Shown here: positions 52,034 through 63,647 of the stretch, piece by piece | Position numbering within the stretch: position 1 is the first letter of the stretch | Layout of the letters: each line of letters starts with the position of its first letter | Translations under genes and position numbers: made by a program | The notes under the pieces: generated by a model | Told to the model about the DNA's origin: nothing | The model's database searches: none | What the model saw: the letters and a program-made list of their open reading frames with translations, nothing else | NCBI RefSeq assembly: GCF_003990185.1 | Contig: NZ_RZHF01000006.1 | Coordinates: forward strand, 93,027-157,026 | From: Vreelandella nanhaiensis | Lineage (GTDB): Bacteria; Pseudomonadota; Gammaproteobacteria; Pseudomonadales; Halomonadaceae | Length of the DNA: 64,000 nt | Direction: 5' to 3'

Positions 52034-53050
52034 TTACCGGCAGTGCTCGCCCCGGGCGATGGCGGCTTTGTCGAACACGCCGGTATCCAGCACCCAGCCG
52101 GTCACTAAGGACGCCGGCGTAACATCAAAAGAGGGGTTCCAAACCGGCGCGTTTTCCGGTGCCCAAACGATATCGCCAAAGGCGCCGGTGGCGCCTCGTA
52201 TCTCAGCAGCGTCGCGCTGCTCGATCGGAATGTCATCGCCCGTGGCGCAGGCCGGGTCTACCGTGGTGTACGGCGCTACCACATAAAACGGCACCTGGTG
52301 GTAGTTGGCGACGACAGCAAGCATATAGGTGCCCACTTTATTGGCAAAGTCGCCGTTGGCGCAGATGCGGTCGGCGCCGACCATCACTTTATCCACTTTG
52401 CCTGCTGCCATCAGGCTTGCGGCCATGCTGTCCGCAATCAGCTGGTAAGGAATATCCAGATCGGCCATTTCCCAGGCGGTTAACCGGCCGCCCTGAAGCA
52501 GCGGGCGGGTTTCGTTCACGTACACGTGCAGTGTTAGCCCGCGCTTTTTGGCAACCGCCAGCGCGCCAATTGCCGTGCCGACACCGGCCGTCGCCAGAGC
52601 GCCGGTATTGCAGTGAGTGAGCACTCGCTCACCCTCTGCCAACAAGTCCGCGCCATACTTAGCCATCCGCAAACACAGCTCGCGGTCCTCTTCAAACAGC
52701 GCGGTGGCGCGCTCAGAAAGCGCAGCCGGCCCCTGGGAAAAGCAAGCCTCCATGGCATCCAGGCAGTACATCAAATTAACCGCCGTGGGGCGTGTAGCGC
52801 GTAAGCGATCGCTTACCCGTTGCCACTCGTTCTCCCGCCCAGGGTGTTGCGCGGCATACTGCGCCAACACGAAGGCAGCGCTTAAACCAATTAGCGGCGC
52901 GCCGCGAATCGCCAGGCTTTTCACCGCTGTCTGCCACTCATCAGGCGAGCTACAGCGCACCCATGTTTCGGTTTGCGGCAAGCGCGTCTGATCCAGATAC
53001 TCAAGCGAGTCGGCATATACCCGCAAACTGCGTGACTGAAGATGAGGCAT
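52034..53050 (-). CDS. mtnA: 5-Methylthioribose-1-phosphate isomerase
   Basis: A 338-residue aldose-ketose isomerase related to eIF2B subunits. Family motifs: IRGAPLIGLSAAFVLAQ, THCNTGALATAGVGTAIGA with the catalytic cysteine, and MVGADRICANGDFANKVGTY with the catalytic aspartate, ending with PAENAPVWNPSFDVTPASLV-like sequence. Converts MTR-1-P to MTRu-1-P in methionine salvage. AAGGAG precedes the ATG. Divergent from mtnBCD; together with mtnK at 55705 it completes the route. Confidence 0.96.
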   Translation of the reverse strand: MPHLQSRSLRVYADSLEYLDQTRLPQTETWVRCSSPDEWQTAVKSLAIRGAPLIGLSAAFVLAQYAAQHPGRENEWQRVSDRLRATRPTAVNLMYCLDAMEACFSQGPAALSERATALFEEDRELCLRMAKYGADLLAEGERVLTHCNTGALATAGVGTAIGALAVAKKRGLTLHVYVNETRPLLQGGRLTAWEMADLDIPYQLIADSMAASLMAAGKVDKVMVGADRICANGDFANKVGTYMLAVVANYHQVPFYVVAPYTTVDPACATGDDIPIEQRDAAEIRGATGAFGDIVWAPENAPVWNPSFDVTPASLVTGWVLDTGVFDKAAIARGEHCR

Positions 53051-53176
53051 CAGGGCTCCTTGAGTACTTAGGGAAAGAACGGATGAGAAAGAAAGGATAC
53101 GGCGCGCGACTTATCAGCCGCGGAGCATATCATATAGAATGAATACCTTTAAAAGCGACGCGATGCTGACCCTACG

Positions 53177-53764
53177 ATGACCTCACAAGACGAACTGCTA
53201 GCGGCCATTTCGTGGGCGGCCCAGCAAGGCTGGACACCCGCCACGGGAGGCAACTTTTCTGCCCGCATGCCACAAGGTTATCTGGTAACCGCCTCGGGCC
53301 GCGATAAAACCCGCATTCAGGCCGATGACTTGCTGCTTTGCGACCTTGAAGGCCAAGTGCTTGAAGGCAATGGTAAACCCAGCGCTGAGAGCGATCTTCA
53401 CGCGGCGCTCTACCGCCTGGACCCGACGATTGGCTGTATATTACACACTCACACCGTGGCCAGTACCGTTCTGTCGCGCCGCTTTCCTGAAGGCATCAAG
53501 CTAAACGGCTTCGAGATGCAAAAAGCGCTGCAGGGCAATCACACCCACGACGCCACGGTCCACCTGCCGGTTGTACCCAATTCTCAAGATATGAATGAGC
53601 TGGCGGATCATGTGCGTACAGGCTGGCCAATGCCGTGGGGCTTTCTTGTGGCTGGACACGGCATCTATGCCGTCGGCGAAACCATTGCCGCCTGCCGCCG
53701 TCATCTGGAAGCCATTGAGTTTTTACTTGCCTGTGTACTTGAAGAGAGTCGGTGGTCTAAATGA
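53177..53764 (+). CDS. mtnB: Methylthioribulose-1-phosphate dehydratase
   Basis: A 195-residue class II aldolase-fold enzyme. GWTPATGGNFSARMP, SGRDKTRIQADDLLL, the catalytic-acid region KPSAESDLHAALY, zinc histidines in CILHTHTVASTVLSRRF and VAGHGIYAVG. Dehydrates MTRu-1-P to the diketone phosphate used by MtnC. It overlaps mtnC by four bases. Confidence 0.96.
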   Translation: MTSQDELLAAISWAAQQGWTPATGGNFSARMPQGYLVTASGRDKTRIQADDLLLCDLEGQVLEGNGKPSAESDLHAALYRLDPTIGCILHTHTVASTVLSRRFPEGIKLNGFEMQKALQGNHTHDATVHLPVVPNSQDMNELADHVRTGWPMPWGFLVAGHGIYAVGETIAACRRHLEAIEFLLACVLEESRWSK

Positions 53765-54465
53765 TAAATAATCCAGGTCTTGATAACACAAACATTCGCG
53801 CCGTGGTAACCGATATCGAAGGCACCACCACGGATATCAACTTTGTGCATAAGGTGCTGTTTCCCTATGCTCACGACCAGCTTCCCGAATTTGTCTACAC
53901 TCACTCAGCGCAACCCGATATAGAAGAGCAGATAGCCGCGGTGCGCGATGAGCTAAAGGAACCGGATGCCTCGCTGGATAAAGTGATCGAAACGCTGCTT
54001 CATTGGATCGAGACCGATCAGAAGGTCACGCCGCTTAAAGCGCTTCAGGGCATGATGTGGGCCGATGGCTATCAGCGCGGCGCCTTCAAGGGACATTTGT
54101 ATAAAGATGTCGCCCCACGCCTTCGCCAGTGGGCAGAGGCCGGAAAACAGCTTTACGTCTACTCGTCAGGCTCCATGCAAGCGCAAAAAATGCTGTTTGG
54201 CTACAGCACAGAGGGCGATCTAACACCGCTGTTCAGCGGCTATTTCGATACCCATATCGGTCACAAGCGCGAAGCCGAGGCGTATCAGCACATTGTCAGC
54301 AAGCTACAGCTCCCCGCCGACGAAATCCTGTTTCTATCCGATGTCGTGGAAGAGCTGGATGCCGCCAAACAGGCGGGCATGCAGACGCTGCAACTGGTGC
54401 GTGAAGGTACCCAGGCTGGCACCGAGCACGCTTGCGTGACAAGCTTCGCTGAGATCGATCTTTAA
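53761..54465 (+). CDS. mtnC: Enolase-phosphatase E1
   Basis: A 234-residue bifunctional HAD enzyme. The nucleophile motif is VVTDIEGTTTDINFVHKVLF; later come YVYSSGSMQAQKMLFGYS, IGHKREAEAYQ and LFLSDVVEELDAAKQAGM. It enolises then dephosphorylates the diketone phosphate to the acireductone. Start overlaps the mtnB stop. Confidence 0.96.
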   Translation: MINNPGLDNTNIRAVVTDIEGTTTDINFVHKVLFPYAHDQLPEFVYTHSAQPDIEEQIAAVRDELKEPDASLDKVIETLLHWIETDQKVTPLKALQGMMWADGYQRGAFKGHLYKDVAPRLRQWAEAGKQLYVYSSGSMQAQKMLFGYSTEGDLTPLFSGYFDTHIGHKREAEAYQHIVSKLQLPADEILFLSDVVEELDAAKQAGMQTLQLVREGTQAGTEHACVTSFAEIDL

Positions 54466-54498
54466 CTGTTCAAGCGTTAACTAGTGGAGAGCGCCTTA

Positions 54499-55047
54499 AT
54501 GTCACAACTCAAAGTATTTGCCGATCAAGACCCAAACAACGCGCTAATCGATACCACCGATGGCGAGCAGATCAAAGCCGAGCTAAACCGTGTTGGCGTG
54601 CTGTTTGAGCGCTGGGCAACACCGGGCGAAATTGCCGATGACGCCACCCAGGACGACATACTGGCGCTCTACCAAGAGGATATCGAGCGGCTAAAGGCCC
54701 AGGGTGGTTACCAGACGGTCGATGTGCTGCATATGGTGCCCACGCATCCTGAAAAAGACGCCATGCGCCAGAAATTCCTGAATGAGCACCGCCATCATGA
54801 AGACGAAGTACGCTTTTTTGTGAAGGGTCAGGGACTTTTCTGCCTGCATATCGAGGACAAGGTGTACCAAGTACTATGCACCCGCAATGACCTGATCAGC
54901 GTACCCGCCAATACGCCGCACTGGTTCGATATGGGACCTAATCCGGAATTCACCGCGCTGCGCTTTTTCGATAACGTGGAAGGCTGGGTACCCCACTGGA
55001 CCGAGAGCGATATCGCTGGCAGGTTTGATCGTATTGATCAGCTGTAA
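54499..55047 (+). CDS. mtnD: Acireductone dioxygenase
   Basis: A 182-residue cupin. Metal ligands are in EHRHHEDEVRFFVKGQGLF (two His, one Glu) and PANTPHWFDMG. Depending on Fe or Ni it makes the methionine precursor KMTB or a side product with CO. ATG at 54499, with GGAGAG upstream; GTG at 54484 is the alternative. Followed by a hairpin terminator. Confidence 0.95.
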   Translation: MSQLKVFADQDPNNALIDTTDGEQIKAELNRVGVLFERWATPGEIADDATQDDILALYQEDIERLKAQGGYQTVDVLHMVPTHPEKDAMRQKFLNEHRHHEDEVRFFVKGQGLFCLHIEDKVYQVLCTRNDLISVPANTPHWFDMGPNPEFTALRFFDNVEGWVPHWTESDIAGRFDRIDQL

Positions 55048-55068
55048 ATATCGGCAATGACTTTAAGG

Positions 55069-55096
55069 ACGCGGGTTCAATTCCCGCGCTCTTTTA
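55069..55096 (+). terminator. mtnBCD terminator, ssrA-3'-end-like hairpin
   Basis: CGCGGG-TTCAATT-CCCGCG followed by CTCTTTTATTT, 22 bases after the mtnD stop, is a good intrinsic terminator. The string GGACGCGGGTTCAATTCCCG also looks like the T-arm end of tmRNA/tRNA genes, and a 19/21 copy in the same orientation occurs at 55663-55683. Confidence 0.8.
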
Positions 55097-55346
55097 TTTC
55101 TTTCATTTAAACAAATTGGGTGTAGCTTTCCCTGTAAATTTAAGCCAGGATCTTATAGAAACTTAAACCAGATTTTAGCTTTCTCCCTATACAAAAATAT
55201 CAATATAGCCTTTTATTCACCTCACTGAGCAAACGATCTAAGTCATTTTGAGATTTCTTCAACTCTGTCATAAGATGAAAATTAACGTTCTTACTTTTTA
55301 TGTTTTTCATAATCAAAATTGGATTAAACTGAGACCAAGCTTCTGG
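55097..55346. other. AT-rich non-coding stretch after mtnD
   Basis: About 250 bases, much poorer in G+C than its neighbours, with no convincing reading frame and no clear motif. It continues into the AT-rich small gene at 55347. Composition suggests foreign origin. Confidence 0.5.
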
Positions 55347-55634
55347 CTAAAAATCTTTTTTAGTTTTTTCTAACGATACTTCCATTTCTTTTATTATAGT
55401 CTTTAAATTATCAACCTCATCATTTCCTAATAAACTCTCACCCGTTAGCTCGTAATATTCATTAGCTTTCGTCTGAAAATTATAAAAAGCTCTCTTAAAG
55501 CTCTTAAAATCTTTTTCACATGAGTAAACTTGATTCAGAAAACCATCATAAAATGATAAGAAGGAGAAAAAATACCCAACTAAAAGCGATAATATAGCTA
55601 CTACTAAGGCAATACATGATATTAAAATAGCCAT
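55347..55634 (-). CDS. Small membrane-anchored protein, unknown
   Basis: A 95-residue protein I do not recognise. Residues 1-27 are a single hydrophobic segment (MAILISCIALVVAILSLLVG); the rest is charged, aromatic-rich and likely helical (KSFKRAFYNFQTKANEYYEL, LKTIIKEMEVSLEKTKKDF), so probably an inner-membrane anchor with a cytoplasmic or periplasmic coiled coil. Codons are AT-rich, unlike neighbours. ATG at 55634 follows GGAG by nine bases; the frame is open back to 55715 inside mtnK, but a terminator lies between. Bracketed by 21-bp near-repeats, it looks like acquired DNA. Confidence 0.6.
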   Translation of the reverse strand: MAILISCIALVVAILSLLVGYFFSFLSFYDGFLNQVYSCEKDFKSFKRAFYNFQTKANEYYELTGESLLGNDEVDNLKTIIKEMEVSLEKTKKDF

Positions 55635-55660
55635 ATTAAAACTCCGAAAACCAATAAATA

Positions 55661-55684
55661 AAGACGCGGGCTTAATTCCCGCGT
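55661..55684 (-). terminator. mtnK terminator
   Basis: On the minus strand GACGCGGG-AATTAAG-CCCGCGTC is followed by TTTATTTATT, starting about 20 bases after the mtnK stop. Strong intrinsic terminator. In plus-strand orientation it is a 19/21 direct repeat of the mtnD terminator. Confidence 0.8.
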
Positions 55685-55704
55685 CACTTTCAAAGCACAC
55701 CGCT

Positions 55705-56982
55705 TTATAGAACATCCTGGCGGTTATAGGCCTGGGCTAGATCGATCAGTGCCGATATATCGCAGGCTGCCTCAGGATTCAGAATCAAGGCTTGGCCCAT
55801 CAGCACGTTGCGGGCTTCAAGCCTGGCGCGTAGCGCAGTGTCTTCGATCTCTTCAAAATCGGCGTTGTGGGCAAGTGAAAGCACCCGGCGGTGCATCTCG
55901 ATGCCGCAATAAGCCAGCGCATCCAGGCGAATCTCGCCCAGCAGCGCATCACAAGCGTCGTCCGCACTGTTGCCCTGCTCTTCAAACAACGCTCTGGGAA
56001 ACAGAATGCCAGTGCGCTCGGTTTGCCATAAATGACGGAACTCAGCATCAAAGCTTGTGAAGCACGCCTCAATCACCTCGAGAATCCACGCCTGGTAAGC
56101 GGCCAGATCATCTTCTTGACGGTGGGCGGGCTGGCTGAAATACGCCATCAGGAAGTTGGCAACCGCCATCCCCAGGTCAAACGCCATCGGCCCGTACTGG
56201 GAAAATTCAGGGTCGATCACGCGCACGTCGGTATCGGTCGCCATGATCGAGCCCGAATGTAAGTCACCGTGGAGCATGGTTTCGGTATTGGCGGTGAACT
56301 TCATCAATAGCCGCTGCACCTTGGCTTTTAATGGCGCATTACGGCGCAGCTCATCCACCACCGGCGAAAGCTCCGGCGTATGGTGGTTCATCTCGGCGCC
56401 GTAATAGGGGTCAGTGAACACCAGCGATTCGGTAATGGCGGGAATCGCCACGTTGCCGGAAAACAGCCCCACATCCTGCTTTTTCTCAGGGCTTGCCAAG
56501 GAAAGCTCCGAGCCGCGAAACGCCGTGCGCGCGCAGAACTGACCGATGGTTTCCCCAAGCTGAGCCACCCGCTCGCCCTTGATCAGCTTGCGTCGTAAAA
56601 TCGTGTGCGGGTAGAGATACTCCATCACGATCAGGGCCTGGGGCTTATCAAAGTAAAATACTTCAGGCGCAATGCCTGGGGCGCGCTTGGCCTGGCGCAC
56701 AAGCGCATAGTACTCAAAGTGCGCGCGATAAAGCGGCAGTGGCCAGCTTTCGCCCACCATACGTACGTAGGGCAGTGCCTGCTTGACCACCACGCTGCCC
56801 GTGGCGCCTGTCACAATAAACACTAGGTTCAAGTTACCGTCGCCCACCTCGCGAATTTCCCAGCTCGCGGGGTCACCACCTACACGGCTGGCCACTTCGT
56901 GTACATCTCCCAGGCGCGCTGCCAAGGTATCGACTGTTAGCGCTGCATAACGCAAGGCCGCTTCTGGTTGACCGTTTTCCAC
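55705..56982 (-). CDS. mtnK: 5-Methylthioribose kinase
   Basis: A 425-residue aminoglycoside-phosphotransferase-fold kinase. REVGDGNLNLVFIVTG, VVVKQALPYVRMVGESWPL with the ATP-binding lysine, catalytic loop MLHGDLHSGSIM and metal-binding VIDPEFSQYGPMAFDLG are typical of MtnK. It makes MTR-1-P, so this organism uses the MtnN/MtnK route (MTA nucleosidase elsewhere) rather than MTA phosphorylase. GTG start at 56982 with GAGGAG six bases upstream. Separated from mtnD by the AT-rich insert. Confidence 0.94.
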   Translation of the reverse strand: MENGQPEAALRYAALTVDTLAARLGDVHEVASRVGGDPASWEIREVGDGNLNLVFIVTGATGSVVVKQALPYVRMVGESWPLPLYRAHFEYYALVRQAKRAPGIAPEVFYFDKPQALIVMEYLYPHTILRRKLIKGERVAQLGETIGQFCARTAFRGSELSLASPEKKQDVGLFSGNVAIPAITESLVFTDPYYGAEMNHHTPELSPVVDELRRNAPLKAKVQRLLMKFTANTETMLHGDLHSGSIMATDTDVRVIDPEFSQYGPMAFDLGMAVANFLMAYFSQPAHRQEDDLAAYQAWILEVIEACFTSFDAEFRHLWQTERTGILFPRALFEEQGNSADDACDALLGEIRLDALAYCGIEMHRRVLSLAHNADFEEIEDTALRARLEARNVLMGQALILNPEAACDISALIDLAQAYNRQDVL

Positions 56983-57177: not shown

Positions 57178-57462
57178 ATGCAGCGCCAGCAGGACCCTCA
57201 AACGCACGACTGGACCTTTACTATCGGGCATCAGGAACTTGTGATTCACCGGCGCTATGAAGCGTTCAGTATGCTCAACGACTTCCTGCTGGGCATCTGG
57301 TTTACCTTCGGCAGCATTTGCTTCTTTTTTGAGGGCACCGTAAAAACGGTGGGCGTGTGTCTTTTCGTCGTTGGCAGCCTTCAGCTGTTGATTCGCCCAG
57401 CGATTCGCTTGCACCGCTATATTTACTTTAAACAGCTTCCAGATACCGACCAGGACGCTTAG
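57178..57462 (+). CDS. YrhK-family small membrane protein
   Basis: A 94-residue protein with two hydrophobic segments (LNDFLLGIWFTFGSICFFFE and VGVCLFVVGSLQLLIRPAIR) matching the YrhK-like domain. Function of the family is unknown to me. AAAGGAGG precedes the ATG. Divergent from mtnK and convergent with the DeoR gene, eight bases apart. Confidence 0.75.
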   Translation: MQRQQDPQTHDWTFTIGHQELVIHRRYEAFSMLNDFLLGIWFTFGSICFFFEGTVKTVGVCLFVVGSLQLLIRPAIRLHRYIYFKQLPDTDQDA

Positions 57463-57469
57463 TGTCCTT

Positions 57470-58225
57470 TTATCCCAGAAACCTGACGCCTCTGGCGGCG
57501 AGCGGGCTGCGTAATCGGTCGGGTAAAGGAGCATCGGTCACAACTGCGTCGTAGTCGGCCAGTTGTCCGGCGGCGCAGCGCAGCGGTAAATCGAACTTGG
57601 TTTTATCCAGCACCAGGACGCGATAGGCCGCATTGGCCAAGAGCGCTTCGCGGGCCATAACCTCATCGTCGTTGTAATCAAAAAGGCTGCCCTGGGCGTC
57701 CATTCCGCCTACCGAGACAATGCCTACATCTACCCGGTAGCGTTGAAAAAAGCGCCACGCGTCACCGCCAATCACGTCCTGATCGCGGCGGCGTACCCGG
57801 CCGCCCGCGACCACCAGCTCACATTCCAGGGCGGATAGCTTGATAAGTGCGTGAAGGTTATTGGTCATGATATGCAGCCCCTTTTTATCGTGCAGCGCGT
57901 CGGCCAGCTGTTCAACGGTAGTGCCGGTACCTAAAAACAGAGACTGATGGTGCTGAATCAACGAGGCGGCCTGGCGCGCAATATGCCGTTTTCCAGCTTC
58001 ATTGACGATCTGGCGCTGGTCATAGCCGATATTTTCACGGTCAGGAAACGGCAATACCTCGCCATGGCGACGTAGCACCATCCCCTTTTCGGCAAGAAAG
58101 CGGATATCACCTCGCAGCGTTTGTACTGATACACCAAACTGGCTGGCCAGTGCCTCTAGGGAGTGGCGTCCCTCCTGGCGCACCCGCTCAAGCAGTGCCT
58201 GGCGACGCTCGTTTAAGCCTTTCAT
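57470..58225 (-). CDS. DeoR-family regulator
   Basis: A 251-residue repressor-type protein: DeoR helix-turn-helix at residues 4-58 (LNERRQALLERVRQEGRHSL, FGVSVQTLRGDIRFLAEKGM) and the DeoRC sugar-phosphate-sensing domain with SLFLGTGTTVEQLAD and VGIVSVGGMDAQGSLFDYND. The nearest well-known type is GlpR/AgaR, sensing phosphorylated small molecules. ATG at 58225 is chosen over ATG at 58246, which lacks a ribosome site. It is divergent from the ABC/MBL/HAD operon; three evenly spaced sites lie in the gap. Confidence 0.88.
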   Translation of the reverse strand: MKGLNERRQALLERVRQEGRHSLEALASQFGVSVQTLRGDIRFLAEKGMVLRRHGEVLPFPDRENIGYDQRQIVNEAGKRHIARQAASLIQHHQSLFLGTGTTVEQLADALHDKKGLHIMTNNLHALIKLSALECELVVAGGRVRRRDQDVIGGDAWRFFQRYRVDVGIVSVGGMDAQGSLFDYNDDEVMAREALLANAAYRVLVLDKTKFDLPLRCAAGQLADYDAVVTDAPLPDRLRSPLAARGVRFLG

Positions 58226-58254
58226 CGTGCTCTCATTCCCCCTCATTTTTTGCT

Positions 58255-58305
58255 AACGAAAGCCTTGTTGAAGTTTTCGAAAGCTCGACCCCATCAAACG
58301 AAAGC
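58255..58305. promoter_or_regulatory. DeoR-type operator array, three sites at 21-bp spacing
   Basis: AACGAAAGC at 58255, TTCGAAAGC at 58276 and AACGAAAGC at 58297 start exactly 21 bases apart, two helical turns, in the 146-base divergent region. DeoR-family proteins are known to bind repeated TTTCG(T/A)T elements, which is the reverse complement of this motif. Exact phasing makes chance unlikely. Confidence 0.78.
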
Positions 58306-58371
58306 GTACTGTCACGATGTTGTAAGGTGATGACAGTAGTGTGAGCAGGGTTAACTCACTGGAGATTTCTG

Positions 58372-59364
58372 ATGTTCAAGCGCTCACTCTGCACCGCTAT
58401 CGCTCTTACCAGCACGATTGCAAGCCTGGCTATTTCAGCAAATGCCATTGCCGACGATAAGCTCGTGCTCTATACCAGCCAGCCCAACAGCGACGCCCAG
58501 CAAACGGTCGATGCTTTCCAGGCGGCTTATCCGGATATCGAGGTGGAGTGGGTACGCGACGGCACCACGCGGTTGATGACCCGCCTGCGCTCCGAGCTTG
58601 CCGCCGGGGTCAGTAACCCCGATGTGCTGCTGATTGCCGACAGCATGACCATGGAGTCGCTAAAGCAGGAAGGCCAGCTTCAGGCTTACCTGAGCCCTGA
58701 ACGCGATGCCTTTGATGCCGAGCTTTTCGACCCGGAAGGTTACTACTACGGCACCAAGCTGATCACCACCGGGATCGTCTATAACACCGGCGCGGAAGAA
58801 CAGCCGCAAAGCTGGCAGGATCTGCTCAAGCCTGAGTACGAAGGACTGGTCACGATGCCCAGCCCGCTCTACTCGGGTGCAGCGCTGATTCACATGGCGG
58901 CGATTAGCGAGAACCCCGCCCTGGGTGAGAGCTATTACGATGCCCTGCATGACAACCGCACCGAAGCCCAGGGTGGTAACGGTGGTGTATTCAACGCAGT
59001 GGCGGCTGGCACCAAGCCTTACGGAATCGTAGTGGACTTCCTGCCCATCCGCGAAGCGGCCAAAGGCTCGCCGGTTGAGTTTGTTTTCCCTGAAGAGGGC
59101 GTAAGCGCGGTCACCGAGCCCGTCGCTATTATGGCAGGCGCCAAAAACGTCGATGCGGCTCAGAAGTTTGTCGATTTTGTGCTCTCGGAAGAGGGCCAGC
59201 AGCTTGTCAGCGAGCAGGGTTATCTACCTGCCCACCCCGATGTTACACCGCCGGAAGGCTTCCCCGCCCGTGACACTATTGAGCTGATGCCCGTCGATAT
59301 CGCCCAGGCGCTTGAGCAGGAAGAAGCCCTGAAGCAACGTTTCAGCGATCTGTTCGGCGGCTGA
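58372..59364 (+). CDS. ABC transporter family 1 binding protein (Fe3+/phosphonate-type)
   Basis: A 330-residue binding protein with a signal peptide ending ANAIA-DDKLVLYTSQ. The mature part resembles AfuA/FbpA and 2-aminoethylphosphonate binding proteins: LVLYTSQPNSDAQQTVDAFQ, WVRDGTTRLMTRLRSELAAG, GTKLITTGIVYN. The iron-binding tyrosine pair of FbpA is not evident, so a phospho-compound ligand is favoured by context. GGAG precedes the ATG. Confidence 0.87.
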   Translation: MFKRSLCTAIALTSTIASLAISANAIADDKLVLYTSQPNSDAQQTVDAFQAAYPDIEVEWVRDGTTRLMTRLRSELAAGVSNPDVLLIADSMTMESLKQEGQLQAYLSPERDAFDAELFDPEGYYYGTKLITTGIVYNTGAEEQPQSWQDLLKPEYEGLVTMPSPLYSGAALIHMAAISENPALGESYYDALHDNRTEAQGGNGGVFNAVAAGTKPYGIVVDFLPIREAAKGSPVEFVFPEEGVSAVTEPVAIMAGAKNVDAAQKFVDFVLSEEGQQLVSEQGYLPAHPDVTPPEGFPARDTIELMPVDIAQALEQEEALKQRFSDLFGG

Positions 59365-59366
59365 TT

Positions 59367-61067
59367 ATGTCACCGAGTCTTACCCAAGGCAGCCAGCACC
59401 GCTGGCTGCTTACCCTTCTGACGCTTACCGTCGTCCTGCTGAGCCTGGCACCTAGCCTGCGCCTTCTGGTCGAAGCGTTAAGCGATCTGACGCAAGGGGG
59501 CAACGCGCCGCTATGGCGTGTGCTCCAATCAGCGAGTACCTGGCGGGCCCTGTCGCACAGTCTCTACACCTCGGGGTTGGGCATGTTGATTGCCCTTACG
59601 CTAGGCAGCCTGTTTGCGTTTGTCATCACCCTGACCGACATTCGCGGCAAGGCGTGGCTGGTGTTCTGCTTTATGTTGCCGATGATGATTCCGCCCCAGG
59701 TCACGGCGCTTAGCTGGCTACAGCTATTTGGCCCGGCAAGCCCGTTACTCAAAAGCATCGGTATGGCACCGCCGCTGGGCAGCCCGCAGCCGCTCTACTC
59801 GGCGGAAGGCATCGCGCTACTGTTAGGTATTCAAAGTGCCCCGCTGGTATTTCTGGCCCTGCGCACCTCGCTACTTTCACTACCCCGCGAACTTGTCGAA
59901 GCCGCCCGCATCAGTGGCGCCCGGCAAAACCAGGTATGGCGGCATATCGTACTGCCCGTGACGAGAAGTGGCCTGGTAGCAGGTAGCGCCATGGCGTTTA
60001 TCTCAAGTCTGGGTAACTTTGGCATTCCGGCCATGCTGGGCATTCCTGCGGGCTATTACGTTCTACCCACGCTGATCTACCAGCGCATGGCCAGTTTTGG
60101 CACCGGCGTCCTCGCTGAGATGGCCGCGCTTTCACTATTGATCGGCGTGCTGGCGCTGGCGGGTGTGGCGCTTCAGCAACACTGGATGGGCCGCAGCCGT
60201 TTCGGGCTGGTGGGGCATAGCGGGCGCGCCCATGATTTCTCACTCGGCCGCTTTCGCGCGCTGGTCACGGTGCTGCTGGTAAGCGTGTTACTGGTCATTC
60301 TTGTCGCGCCGCTGGTGGCACTGGTAGTCAGCTCGCTGGTGCCGGCCATGGGCGTACCGCTTAATGCCGATACCGCCACTCTAAATGCCTACCATGAAGT
60401 GATTGGCCGCCAGGGCGCTACGTGGCGCGCCATGCGCAATAGCTTTTGGCTCGCCGGTGGCGCAGCCGTGGTGCTCATGCTGTGCAGTCTGCCGCTGGCG
60501 TACCGCCTCCAGCGGCTTCCAGCGCGCCTGCAAAATCTGACGCTGAGTATTATCGAGCTACCTTACGCCCTGCCTGGCGTGGTACTCGCAATTGCCTGCA
60601 TTCTACTGTTCGTGCGGCCATTGCCCATTATCAACGTCGCACTGTACGGCACGCTGGGGCTGATCTTCGTGGCCTATCTGGCGCGTTTTCTGGTGGTGTG
60701 CCTAAAGCCGGTCAGCGCAAGCCTCGCCCAGTTAGACCCTTCCCTTGAAGAAGCCGCCCAGCTCGCCGGTGCCGGCCCGTGGCGCCGCCTTACCACTATC
60801 GTCATGCCGCTGATTGCACCCGCGCTGTTTGCTGGCGGGCTTTTGGTGTTTCTGCTGGCTGTCAACGAGCTGACCGTCTCGGCGCTTTTATGGAGTGCGG
60901 GCAACGAAACCCTGGGCGTACTGATTTTCAACCTCGATGAAGGTGGCGAAAGCGTGCTGGCCTCAGCGGTGTCCGTGCTGGTCGTGCTGATGGTCGCTTC
61001 ACTCATGCTCTCGCTTAGCCTTTTGGCCCCGCGTTTACCCAAAGGAGTCGTGCCATGGCAGGGCTAA
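59367..61067 (+). CDS. ABC permease, two-domain FbpB type
   Basis: A 566-residue membrane protein with about twelve hydrophobic segments in two permease units, each with an EAA loop (LPRELVEAARISGARQNQVW and LDPSLEEAAQLAGAGPWRRL). FbpB/PhnV-like fused permease. It starts two bases after the binding-protein stop and overlaps the ATPase gene by 13 bases. Confidence 0.92.
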   Translation: MSPSLTQGSQHRWLLTLLTLTVVLLSLAPSLRLLVEALSDLTQGGNAPLWRVLQSASTWRALSHSLYTSGLGMLIALTLGSLFAFVITLTDIRGKAWLVFCFMLPMMIPPQVTALSWLQLFGPASPLLKSIGMAPPLGSPQPLYSAEGIALLLGIQSAPLVFLALRTSLLSLPRELVEAARISGARQNQVWRHIVLPVTRSGLVAGSAMAFISSLGNFGIPAMLGIPAGYYVLPTLIYQRMASFGTGVLAEMAALSLLIGVLALAGVALQQHWMGRSRFGLVGHSGRAHDFSLGRFRALVTVLLVSVLLVILVAPLVALVVSSLVPAMGVPLNADTATLNAYHEVIGRQGATWRAMRNSFWLAGGAAVVLMLCSLPLAYRLQRLPARLQNLTLSIIELPYALPGVVLAIACILLFVRPLPIINVALYGTLGLIFVAYLARFLVVCLKPVSASLAQLDPSLEEAAQLAGAGPWRRLTTIVMPLIAPALFAGGLLVFLLAVNELTVSALLWSAGNETLGVLIFNLDEGGESVLASAVSVLVVLMVASLMLSLSLLAPRLPKGVVPWQG

Positions 61068-62101
61068 CCCTTAAGCAAGTTACCAAGCAGTTTGGCGAAC
61101 ACAAGGCCGTGGATGGGCTTTCATTAACGGTTGAACCGGGTGAGTTCGTCGCCCTGCTCGGCCCCAGCGGCTGCGGAAAAACCACCATGCTACGTATGCT
61201 GGCCGGGTTCGAGCAGGTCAGTGCCGGGGAGATCCACCTGGGCGATACGCTTTTGGCAAGCGCGCAGCACCACGTACTCCCCGAGCAGCGCAACATGGCC
61301 ATGGTGTTCCAATCCTACGCGTTGTGGCCGCATATGAGCGTCGCGGATAACGTCGGCTACCCACTCAAACTGCGCGGCATGCGCGGGGCAGAATATCAAC
61401 GCCGTGTTGAGCAAGCGCTTGCCCTGGTGGCGCTTGAACCCTACGCCCAGCGAACGCCTCAGGATTTAAGCGGCGGCCAGCGCCAGCGCGTGGCGCTCGC
61501 CCGCTGTCTGGTCACCAACCCATCAGTGGTGCTTCTGGATGAGCCCTTGGCGAACCTGGATCGCCACCTGCGCGCCTCCATGGAGCATAGCTTTGCAGAT
61601 TTTCACCGCCGCACCGGCGCGACCATGGTGTACGTCACGCACGATCAAAGCGAAGCCATGGCGCTGGCCGACCGTATCGCGGTGATGCAGGCGGGCAAAC
61701 TGGTGCAGTGGGCCACGCCCGAAACGCTCTACCGCGAACCGCGTACGTCCTGGGTGGCAAGCTTTATCGGCCAAGGCAGCCAACTGATGATAAGCAACGG
61801 CGCACCGGGCAGGCGTCTTGGCGGCCATGAGCTGATGCAGGGGCTGACGTCTCCCGCCTCCCAGCGAAACCAGCCAGTACTGGTGCGCCCTGAACACATT
61901 CAGGTGCATCCCGAGGCGCCGAGCCAGCAGGATTTAACCGCCCGTGTTGAGCGCCAAACCTTTCGTGGCGAGCGTTACGAGCTTCACCTGCGCATGAGGG
62001 ACGGCGAAACGCTGCTCACCTATCATTCCCATGCACTGAAAGAGGGCCAGCAGGTGGCGCTAACGCTCTTGGAAGGCTGGTGTCTGGAGCCTGACCAATG
62101 A
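61055..62101 (+). CDS. ABC ATPase, FbpC/PotA type
   Basis: A 348-residue ATPase: Walker A GPSGCGKTTMLRMLAGF, FQSYALWPHMS, signature [15 protein letters not shown], Walker B VVLLDEPLANLDR, H-loop VTHDQSEAMALADR, and a TOBE tail from about residue 250. GGAG lies before the ATG. Overlaps the MBL gene by ATGA, tying transport to hydrolysis. Confidence 0.93.
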   Translation: MAGLTLKQVTKQFGEHKAVDGLSLTVEPGEFVALLGPSGCGKTTMLRMLAGFEQVSAGEIHLGDTLLASAQHHVLPEQRNMAMVFQSYALWPHMSVADNVGYPLKLRGMRGAEYQRRVEQALALVALEPYAQRTPQDLSGGQRQRVALARCLVTNPSVVLLDEPLANLDRHLRASMEHSFADFHRRTGATMVYVTHDQSEAMALADRIAVMQAGKLVQWATPETLYREPRTSWVASFIGQGSQLMISNGAPGRRLGGHELMQGLTSPASQRNQPVLVRPEHIQVHPEAPSQQDLTARVERQTFRGERYELHLRMRDGETLLTYHSHALKEGQQVALTLLEGWCLEPDQ

Positions 62102-63201
62102 GCGCCAGCATCAACATTTTAAGCGGCCTGGGCGATAAAGGCCCGGCGGCCATTGTGGTGGAGGCCAACGGCAAGCGTCTGCTGCTTGACGCTGGCGGCG
62201 CACTGCACCCAGGCGAGCCTACCACCTGGGCACGCGGGCTTGATATCGATGCGGTAATTATCAGCCATGATCATATCGATCATATTGGCGGCGTCAGCGA
62301 GCTGCCCGCTACGCTGCCGCTTTACTGCACACCCCTGGTCGCTCAGGCACTTCCCAAAGGGCGAGCCTGGCAGTCGCTGCCTGAACGCAGTACCTGTCAG
62401 GTTGCCGGCATTCCGGTGACTACCGGCCAGGCGGGCCATTCATTGGGCGGGGTATGGATTCACCTGGGTATTGAGGGCGGCATTTTCTACAGCGGCGACG
62501 CCTGCTTTGAGTCTCGGCTGTTTCCGTTTGATGCACCGCCACCGGCGCGTATTGCGCTGTTGGACGCTTCTTATGGCACCTACGATCAGCCCCAACAGGC
62601 ATGCGTGGATGCCATTAGCGAACACTTGAACCGCCCGCTGGTTTTCCCGGTTCCTGAATCGGGCCGGGCGCTTGAGATGGCGCTCTGGCTAGCCGAAGAG
62701 GCGGACGCTCGTGGGCTTTCGCTCGCCATTGATCCGGTTATTCGAGCCAACCTGAAAACACTGTTGGCACTCCCCTCGACGCTGCGCCGCTCCCATGCGG
62801 ATGACAACATTAAAACGCTTCTGACTCGCCCTGATGCCTCCCAGCCAACGCTCAAGCTGATCAGCGATCGTGACGATACCGCTGCCATGTGGCCCGGCTT
62901 CCACCTGCTGCATACCGGTTATCTGACGCCTTCGCGCTGCGCCGAACTTGCCGCTGGCGACATCCTCTGGCAGCGCTGGAATGTGCACCTGCGCGCCTCG
63001 CACTTGGTCGAGCTTGCCGATCAGATACAGGCCGAACGTGTCGTGCCGCTATTTACCCACTTATCCGAACCCGCACTCGGCGCATGGCGAACGTTACTGG
63101 GTGCCCGCCTCGCCACGGAAAAGACCCTGTTCTTAAATACTTACGCCTTGAATACTCACACTTTAGATGCCAACGCCTTGAATAACAGGAGCCCTGCATG
63201 A
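62098..63201 (+). CDS. Metallo-beta-lactamase-fold hydrolase, possibly beta-CASP-like
   Basis: A 367-residue MBL-fold protein. The metal motif HxHxDH is at H57-D58-H59-I60-D61-H62 (ISHDHIDHIGG), with later ligands in QAGHSLGG and YSGDACF. From about residue 170 the sequence FPVPESGRALEMALWLAEEA resembles the GRaxE helix of beta-CASP nucleases, and LRASHLVELADQIQAERVVP resembles their C-terminal histidine segment. So it may be a nuclease or phosphodiesterase. No signal peptide, hence cytoplasmic. Coupled by ATGA overlaps to the ATPase before and the phosphatase after. Confidence 0.8.
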   Translation: MSASINILSGLGDKGPAAIVVEANGKRLLLDAGGALHPGEPTTWARGLDIDAVIISHDHIDHIGGVSELPATLPLYCTPLVAQALPKGRAWQSLPERSTCQVAGIPVTTGQAGHSLGGVWIHLGIEGGIFYSGDACFESRLFPFDAPPPARIALLDASYGTYDQPQQACVDAISEHLNRPLVFPVPESGRALEMALWLAEEADARGLSLAIDPVIRANLKTLLALPSTLRRSHADDNIKTLLTRPDASQPTLKLISDRDDTAAMWPGFHLLHTGYLTPSRCAELAAGDILWQRWNVHLRASHLVELADQIQAERVVPLFTHLSEPALGAWRTLLGARLATEKTLFLNTYALNTHTLDANALNNRSPA

Positions 63202-63647
63202 CCCACGCTGTCATTGTCGATGTCGACGGTACCTTAGCTGAATTCCACCCCACGAAAGTACACGAATGGGTATTAGGCCCCGCAAAACAGTGGGACCCCT
63301 TCTTTGCGTATATGGCCGAAGCGCCGGTAATCGAACCGGTTGCCCGGCTGGTGAAATTATTGAAAGCCCAGGGCCAGCAGATCGTCATTTGCAGCGGCCG
63401 TCCGGATACCCACCGCGACCATACCCATGAGTGGTTGACGCGCAACGCCATACCGTTTGACGCCATGTACCTGCGCCCGGATGGCCATGATCATGTGGAT
63501 GACGAAGCGGTCAAAGAAGCCCTGCTCAACACCATGCGTGAAGATGGTTTCGAGCCCTGGCTGGTGCTGGACGACCGCGATGCAGTGGTTGCCCAGTGGC
63601 GCGCTCTAGGCCTTACCTGCCTGCAATGCGCCCCGGGTGATTTTTAA
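63198..63647 (+). CDS. HAD-family phosphatase resembling the T4 Pnkp 3'-phosphatase domain
   Basis: A 149-residue HAD protein. Nucleophile motif VIVDVDGTLAEF, threonine/serine motif VICSGRPDT, acidic motif LVLDDRDAVVAQWRALGL and a C-terminus LQCAPGDF. Phage T4 polynucleotide kinase's phosphatase domain has the same order and closing motif (as recalled: IDDRTQVVEMWRRIG... and ASGDF). No kinase domain. Likely removes a phosphate from nucleotide-like or small phosphoesters. CAGGAG precedes the ATG. Confidence 0.83.
   Translation: MTHAVIVDVDGTLAEFHPTKVHEWVLGPAKQWDPFFAYMAEAPVIEPVARLVKLLKAQGQQIVICSGRPDTHRDHTHEWLTRNAIPFDAMYLRPDGHDHVDDEAVKEALLNTMREDGFEPWLVLDDRDAVVAQWRALGLTCLQCAPGDF

Follow-up and report, generated by a model that had tools for sequence, protein, structure and literature searches.

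The space shared by a DeoR-family regulator gene (deoR) and a divergent ABC importer operon in Vreelandella nanhaiensis carries three CGAAAG half-sites in tandem, followed at a fixed distance by a putative Pho box. On sequence grounds, the half-sites are a real, though putative, operator array. It is likely that they are half-sites for the DeoR-family protein, which would repress both its own gene and the importer, and that PhoB activates the importer at low phosphate. The window (the whole stretch of DNA that was analysed, 64,000 nucleotides) contains the following features:

57470..58225, minus strand: DeoR-family regulator gene, 251 aa, with HTH_DeoR and DeoRC domains
58257..58262, plus strand: repeat 1, CGAAAG, the half-site farthest from the importer; it precedes the deoR start codon by 32-37 bp
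58278..58283, plus strand: repeat 2, CGAAAG; CGAAA columns invariant in 36 non-redundant family promoters
58299..58304, plus strand: repeat 3, CGAAAG, its start 10 bp ahead of the Pho box; none of its six columns varies over 36 family promoters
58309..58326, plus strand: putative Pho box CTGTCAC-GATG-TTGTAAG, in which 4 bp separate two 7-bp repeats; it starts 10 bp after the start of repeat 3
58337..58342, plus strand: putative -10 hexamer TAGTGT, 10 bp after the Pho box
58372..59364, plus strand: ABC importer substrate-binding protein (SBP_bac_6); nearest solved relatives include AfuA and P5PA
59367..61067, plus strand: ABC importer permease, fused, with two BPD_transp_1 stretches
61055..62101, plus strand: ABC importer ATPase
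62098..63201, plus strand: MBL-fold hydrolase
63198..63647, plus strand: HAD phosphatase, similar to the PNKP phosphatase domain

The array, the regulator and the importer operon

The original prediction placed WWCGAAAGC at 58255, 58276 and 58297, between the DeoR gene and the importer operon. Plus-strand matches at 58255-58263, 58276-58284 and 58297-58305 bear this out; the period is exactly 21 bp, and the array lies in a 146-bp intergenic space with deoR on the minus strand and the importer operon on the plus strand. Single copies of WWCGAAAGC are not rare, as there are ten matches on both strands of the window (mean of 100 shuffles 2.38, largest 6); the rarity lies in the equal spacing. Of all 7-mers in the window, CGAAAGC alone occurs as three copies at a constant period of 12-40 bp, and 60 dinucleotide shuffles yielded no such triple. 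Four 6-mers have such triples, two of them being parts of the CGAAAGC array, against 0.17 per shuffled window.

The genome (4.03 Mb, 29 contigs) has just two exact, overlapping CGAAAG-N15-CGAAAG pairs, both in the array. A pair alone is unremarkable, since the reversed control pattern gives 7 matches. With up to two mismatches there are 29 matches, below the control (71). No second array site was found elsewhere in the genome at 0 or 1 mismatch. A wider regulon was rejected on these two results, and the uniqueness of the array at 0 or 1 mismatch favours a local regulator.

The regulator belongs to the DeoR family by both of its domains: an N-terminal DeoR-type helix-turn-helix (HTH; PF08220, 47.7 bits, cut-off 21) and a C-terminal DeoRC sensor domain (PF00455, 137.5 bits, cut-off 31.8). 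Its start at 58225 was picked by eye for the upstream sequence GAGGGGGA. Twelve NCBIfam families for named E. coli DeoR-family equivalogs (GlpR, AgaR, SrlR, UlaR, DeoR and others) match it, none above cut-off; the best scores 155 bits against a required 331. The HTH segment [ST]-x-Q-T-x-R-[GATS]-D-x-R, which we take to be the recognition helix, is present in 20/20 aligned alpha- and gammaproteobacterial orthologues and in 0/2 Coriobacteria DeoR proteins. The sensor domain has the D-x-x-K motif of DeoR-family effector contacts (D207 and K210), which is invariant across nine aligned family orthologues; the available text of PMC10991401 gives the corresponding contacts as Asp206/Lys209 in UlaR and Asp210/Lys213 in LacR, whose effector is tagatose-6-phosphate. 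A profile search of solved structures returned one sequence, the deoxyribose operon repressor chain 7l6l, aligned to query residues 74-234; as this chain is the sole solved match, the geometry of binding could not be taken from a DNA complex. None of the nine proteins scanned near the array showed an AraC-family domain.

The putative Pho box has the CTGTCAT-like form of two repeats and a 4-bp spacer, with one mismatch to CTGTCAYNNNNYTGTMAY. That consensus, searched through the whole genome with one mismatch allowed, gives 8 matches against 5 for the reversed control. Three other matches precede phosphate-type genes and are oriented towards them: an ABC permease gene (by context, pstC) next to a pstS-like gene, a second pstS-like gene, and a Porin_O_P gene; both pstS-like assignments are below the family cut-off. 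One match is near a polyphosphate kinase gene (ppk) and is oriented away from it; one begins 25 bp before an ORF which is presumably glutamate dehydrogenase; two more are inside other ORFs. PhoB is encoded in the genome (TIGR02154, 360.5 bits, cut-off 296.2), and in Halomonas sp. HAL1 it binds a Pho box, according to the available part of PMC4563254. The importer transcript would be expected to start near 58349. A scan of 58150-58420 for sigma-70 consensus promoters and terminators found nothing, including for the deoR promoter. Between the Pho box and the -10 hexamer, GATGACA (window 58329-58335) is invariant over the 36 non-redundant family promoters; ATGAC likewise follows the Pho-box matches before the pst-type permease gene and near ppk, and it resembles an inverted Pho half-site.

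Among solved structures, the substrate-binding protein is closest to AfuA (4r72-4r75; phmmer E 4.6e-20 to 4r72). P5PA (6wce) comes fifth of 42 solved relatives (phmmer E 1.4e-14), and many of the other relatives carry iron-binding names. AfuA binds hexose and heptose phosphates (PMC4546632) and P5PA binds pyridoxal phosphate (PMC8427247), as stated in the accessible portions of these papers. The system is a candidate importer of a phosphorylated organic compound, as suggested by this homology and the Pho box.

Several other details of the locus should be recorded. A histidine phosphatase gene (PF00300) lies between the MBL and HAD genes in all six relatives with ORFs inspected (L086, L089, L092, L096, L098 and L105), and the annotation of a Phaeobacter plasmid shows the same arrangement. 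In the window, an overlap of the MBL and HAD genes (63198-63201) leaves no room for the histidine phosphatase gene, which is missing there. The substrate-binding gene of one relative (G248:C25:73709-74686) has an in-frame TAG. Upstream, a methionine-salvage cluster (window 52034-56982) comprises mtnA, mtnB, acireductone synthase and S-methyl-5-thioribose kinase; it presumably also includes acireductone dioxygenase, as ORF 54484-55047, a shorter form of which had no NCBIfam match. A YrhK-like ORF (PF14145, window 57178-57462) lies between the kinase gene and deoR.

Promoters with and without deoR

Genomes of the family were divided according to whether they encode a deoR orthologue (E <= 1e-50), which is the case in 42/275 (40 in the genus of the window and 2 in another). 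The CGAAA triplet is present in the promoter beside every one of the 42 orthologues, with repeat 1 either 21 or 22 bp from repeat 2: the spacing is 21/21 bp in 23 and 22/21 bp in 19. The sixth base of a repeat is not G in some of them. Over the 36 non-redundant family promoters, the CGAAA columns of repeats 2 and 3 are invariant and most spacer columns carry less than 1 bit; the profile dips at repeat 1 because the 22-bp clade sits out of register there. Repeat 3 is 10 bp from the Pho box in 42/42, the Pho box has at most two mismatches in 42/42, and TAnnnT follows it after 10 bp in 42/42. A hidden period of 10-11 bp was rejected, as the mid-spacer columns hold no conserved site. No hidden palindrome at the individual gammaproteobacterial repeats was seen by eye in the aligned promoters, which were not scored for this.

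The substrate-binding protein (E <= 1e-70) is found in 77/275 family genomes: the 42 with a deoR orthologue and 35 without. None of the 35 deoR-lacking loci has deoR within 3.5-3.8 kb around the substrate-binding gene. Their importer promoters have no CGAAA pair at 20-23 bp (0/35), though a Pho-box match with at most two mismatches is kept in 27/35. A lone CGAAA stands 10 bp before the Pho box in 3/35. In these three loci (L164, L165 and L173) the full CGAAAG is intact, which may reflect either recent loss of deoR or another binder. With one mismatch allowed, CGAAAG is found at the repeat-3 offset in 6/34 scorable promoters (L180, which has no Pho-box call, was omitted), where the mean is 0.33 per offset and the next highest count is 3. 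Three of the six remnants are intact, two of these being from close sisters, and three have one change. They look as if repeat 3 had decayed after the loss of deoR, a pattern that would speak against pure linkage.

Linkage is nevertheless a fair objection: a single deletion might remove the neighbouring deoR and repeats together. On a tree of the binding protein, presence of deoR changes at least five times within the family. Four well-supported independent contrasts are all concordant with the repeats; the sign test gives p = 0.125, which is not significant because four pairs can never reach significance. The tree is a quick one, in which 38/96 inner branches have less than 80% support, and L090 was left out.

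More distant promoters were taken from a scan of 84,980 species genomes for deoR relatives, which gave 79 loci with the best 80 of 85 relatives kept. The promoter counts omit L059-L085 (82-97% identity, Halomonas and Vreelandella records from a group already sampled) and 24 Coriobacteria loci, L114-L137, which have 28-32% identity and in whose vicinity no importer genes were found. The distant set of 23 also drops L086-L088 and L101, which are Halomonas records, and L112, in which no importer gene was found. Importer genes adjoin deoR in all 23 distant loci scored; L104 is the one locus where no HAD gene was found. The importer occurs in Halomonadaceae, Nitrincola, Marinobacterium, Pokkaliibacter, some Enterobacteriaceae and Alphaproteobacteria.

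Of 14 gammaproteobacterial promoters outside the family, ten have a CGAAA pair at 20-23 bp. The last two repeats are 21 bp apart in nine of these and 22 bp apart in one. Across family and outgroup promoters, repeat 1 stands in 21-, 22- or 23-bp phase; in six of the ten outgroup promoters with a pair it was not found at 20-23 bp. The other four, from Enterobacteriaceae, have no pair at that spacing, yet CGAAA stands 10 bp from the box in them, and again close to the start of the importer. The last CGAAA is 10 bp from the best Pho box in 14/14 (Nitrincola, Marinobacterium, Pokkaliibacter, a Nitrincolaceae MAG and Enterobacteriaceae); it should be noted that five of these boxes have 3-4 mismatches and that some of the promoters are near copies of each other.

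In Alphaproteobacteria, the same half-site forms a palindrome, CTTTCG-NN-CGAAAG, which is present with at most one mismatch in 10/10 loci from Rhodobacterales and Cohaesibacter (nine are exact). Letter-shuffled regions, drawn from 8 of the 10 alphaproteobacterial regions, contain it at this stringency in 2/4000 cases. In 9/10 loci the importer gene begins a short way downstream of the palindrome, and close to the deoR start there is a second, weaker copy with 1-3 mismatches. The Pho-box match is poor, with 3-5 mismatches, in all nine alphaproteobacterial promoters scored. The locus L112, from Celeribacter persicus, has a deoR orthologue but no importer was found in it; there is one copy of the palindrome beside deoR, followed, by eye, by an apparent transposase start.

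Comparison of orthologous promoters had been named as one means by which the DeoR reading could be refuted. The repeats are present in them, and the reading stands. Assignment to the DeoR protein is well supported by the co-occurrence of triplet and deoR (a triplet in 42/42 with deoR, a pair in 0/35 without), by the uniqueness of the array at 0 or 1 mismatch, and by the HTH segment common to the 20 aligned orthologues. The prediction of repeats on one face of the helix holds for repeats 2 and 3, with 21 bp in 42/42 family promoters and in 9/10 outgroup promoters with the pair (22 bp in the tenth). It holds less well for repeat 1, whose distance is 21, 22 or 23 bp where a copy was found at 20-23 bp at all. 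The original prediction further read same-face repeats as suited to a multimeric DeoR protein, with cooperative repression as the predicted consequence.

Proposed regulation and alternatives

The following mechanism is proposed. The DeoR-family protein encoded by the divergent gene would bind the three CGAAAG half-sites. Bound there, it would repress its own gene, repeat 1 being 32-37 bp upstream of the start codon, and would restrain the importer promoter by its closeness to the Pho box, where it would hinder PhoB or polymerase. At low phosphate, PhoB would occupy the Pho box, which takes the place of a -35 element, and activate the importer promoter. DeoR would be released when a phosphorylated inducer, probably formed from the imported compound by metabolism, binds at the D-x-x-K site. 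Full importer expression would then need both low phosphate and the phosphorylated inducer. The original prediction described a plain repressor operator. The array itself was correctly identified; the Pho box was overlooked, and its presence makes a two-input promoter the reading.

The geometry makes autorepression easier to see than repression of the importer, since all three repeats are upstream of the Pho box and leave the -10 hexamer uncovered. Other points against the DeoR reading are that the phase of repeat 1 is not fixed, that four Enterobacteriaceae lack the pair, that CGAAA persists at the 10-bp place in three promoters without deoR, that the scan found no sigma-70 promoter for deoR, and that the Pho boxes are poor in the alphaproteobacterial promoters and in 5 of the 14 other gammaproteobacterial ones.

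The same geometry would also suit activation of the importer by DeoR jointly with PhoB, since the repeats are about 47-89 bp upstream of the inferred transcript start, on one face of the helix and at a fixed 10 bp from the Pho box. Activation is the mechanism of the E. coli L-fucose operon activator, which is a member of the DeoR family. We nevertheless consider joint activation unlikely. The alphaproteobacterial layout, with the palindrome shortly before the importer gene in 9/10 loci and a weaker copy near the deoR start, suits repression, and importer promoters lacking deoR mostly keep the Pho box and presumably work. Moreover, the LacI- and DeoR-family sites considered in Caldicellulosiruptor all overlap promoters or sit in 5' UTRs, as far as the accessible text of PMC8579813 goes. 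Repression is preferred to activation on account of this family habit and of the alphaproteobacterial layout.

It is considerably less probable still that the repeats are sites for PhoB or some other protein, or are an extension of the Pho box, and adjoin deoR merely through the shared promoter. One helical turn separates the last repeat from the Pho box in 56/56 gammaproteobacterial deoR promoters scored, the repeats and deoR are physically linked, and repeat 3 is intact in 3/35 promoters without deoR, all of which such an explanation would accommodate. It does not account for the lack of a CGAAA pair in promoters that lack deoR and mostly keep the Pho box, nor for the position of the alphaproteobacterial half-site, which is near both gene starts instead. 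In addition, there is no CGAAAG in the 20 bases before the three other Pho boxes (those of the permease gene beside the pstS-like gene, the second pstS-like gene and the Porin_O_P gene). Functionless repeats that arose by chance have a negligible probability. The ten WWCGAAAGC matches in the window and the frequency of pairs at 21-bp spacing in the genome (7 reversed-control matches) could be cited in favour of chance; it was rejected on the shuffles and on conservation, the repeats being kept in 42/42 orthologous promoters against variable spacers.

Under the preferred reading, in which DeoR represses and PhoB activates, one orthologous group of DeoR proteins would use the same half-site in two layouts: in Gammaproteobacteria as a 21-bp tandem one turn from the PhoB site, and in Alphaproteobacteria as a palindrome near both gene starts. 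The fixed 10 bp may further mean that DeoR and PhoB touch or compete, forming a composite switch for phosphate and a phosphorylated metabolite. We put the two layouts and the composite switch forward tentatively, as one reading that we hold to be somewhat less likely than its opposite.

The reading predicts that this uncharacterised importer has a promoter responding to two signals, phosphate limitation and a phosphorylated metabolite. Promoters with spacings of 21/21, 22/21 and 23/21 bp occur naturally and, along with a set free of the regulator, are available for the study of DeoR-family occupancy of tandem half-sites. Release of DeoR from the operator could also serve as a direct assay in the search for the substrate of the importer.

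Comparison with known systems

The locus is undescribed among the matches listed in literature searches on DeoR operators, DeoR with Pho boxes, and organophosphate systems, which covered titles and the starts of abstracts, mostly non-subscription. The substrate-binding protein is homologous to those of AfuABC (PMC4546632) and P5PAB (PMC8427247). Unlike these systems, as they are presented in the available parts of the two papers, the operon in the window adds MBL-fold and HAD hydrolases (and a histidine phosphatase in relatives) and a DeoR regulator.

The importer promoter resembles PhoB-dependent promoters in which the Pho box replaces the -35 element. A Pho box is defined as two 7-bp repeats with a 4-bp spacer in the accessible text of PMC4563254; here this is followed by 10 bp and TAnnnT, and inspection by eye shows this arrangement also before the pst-type permease and Porin_O_P genes of the genome. 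Unlike a plain PhoB-dependent promoter, it has the array of a second, local regulator fixed one helical turn upstream. A loose parallel is the CcpA site immediately upstream of the PHO box in B. subtilis phoPR, mentioned in the available part of PMC4415409.

The closest parallel for the array is RhaR, a DeoR-family regulator of Chloroflexus aurantiacus and relatives. In the portion of PMC3870299 available, EMSA shows RhaR bound to a 38-bp fragment that carries four TCGAAA sites, with L-rhamnulose releasing it; RhaR motifs are direct repeats with a period of 10-11 bp, and direct repeats of 21 bp are reported for AraC-family regulators. As with RhaR, a DeoR-family regulator gene stands beside the target operon and the sites are TCGAAA-like direct repeats. 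Unlike those described for RhaR in that text, the repeats in the window have a period of 21 bp with no conserved site in mid-spacer. The RhaR target is sugar catabolism, whereas the array in the window is followed by a Pho box at a fixed distance and has a palindromic counterpart in Alphaproteobacteria. Tandem TCGAAA-like operators of DeoR-family proteins are already known; what appears to differ here is the period of 21 bp, the Pho box locked in place and the alphaproteobacterial palindrome.
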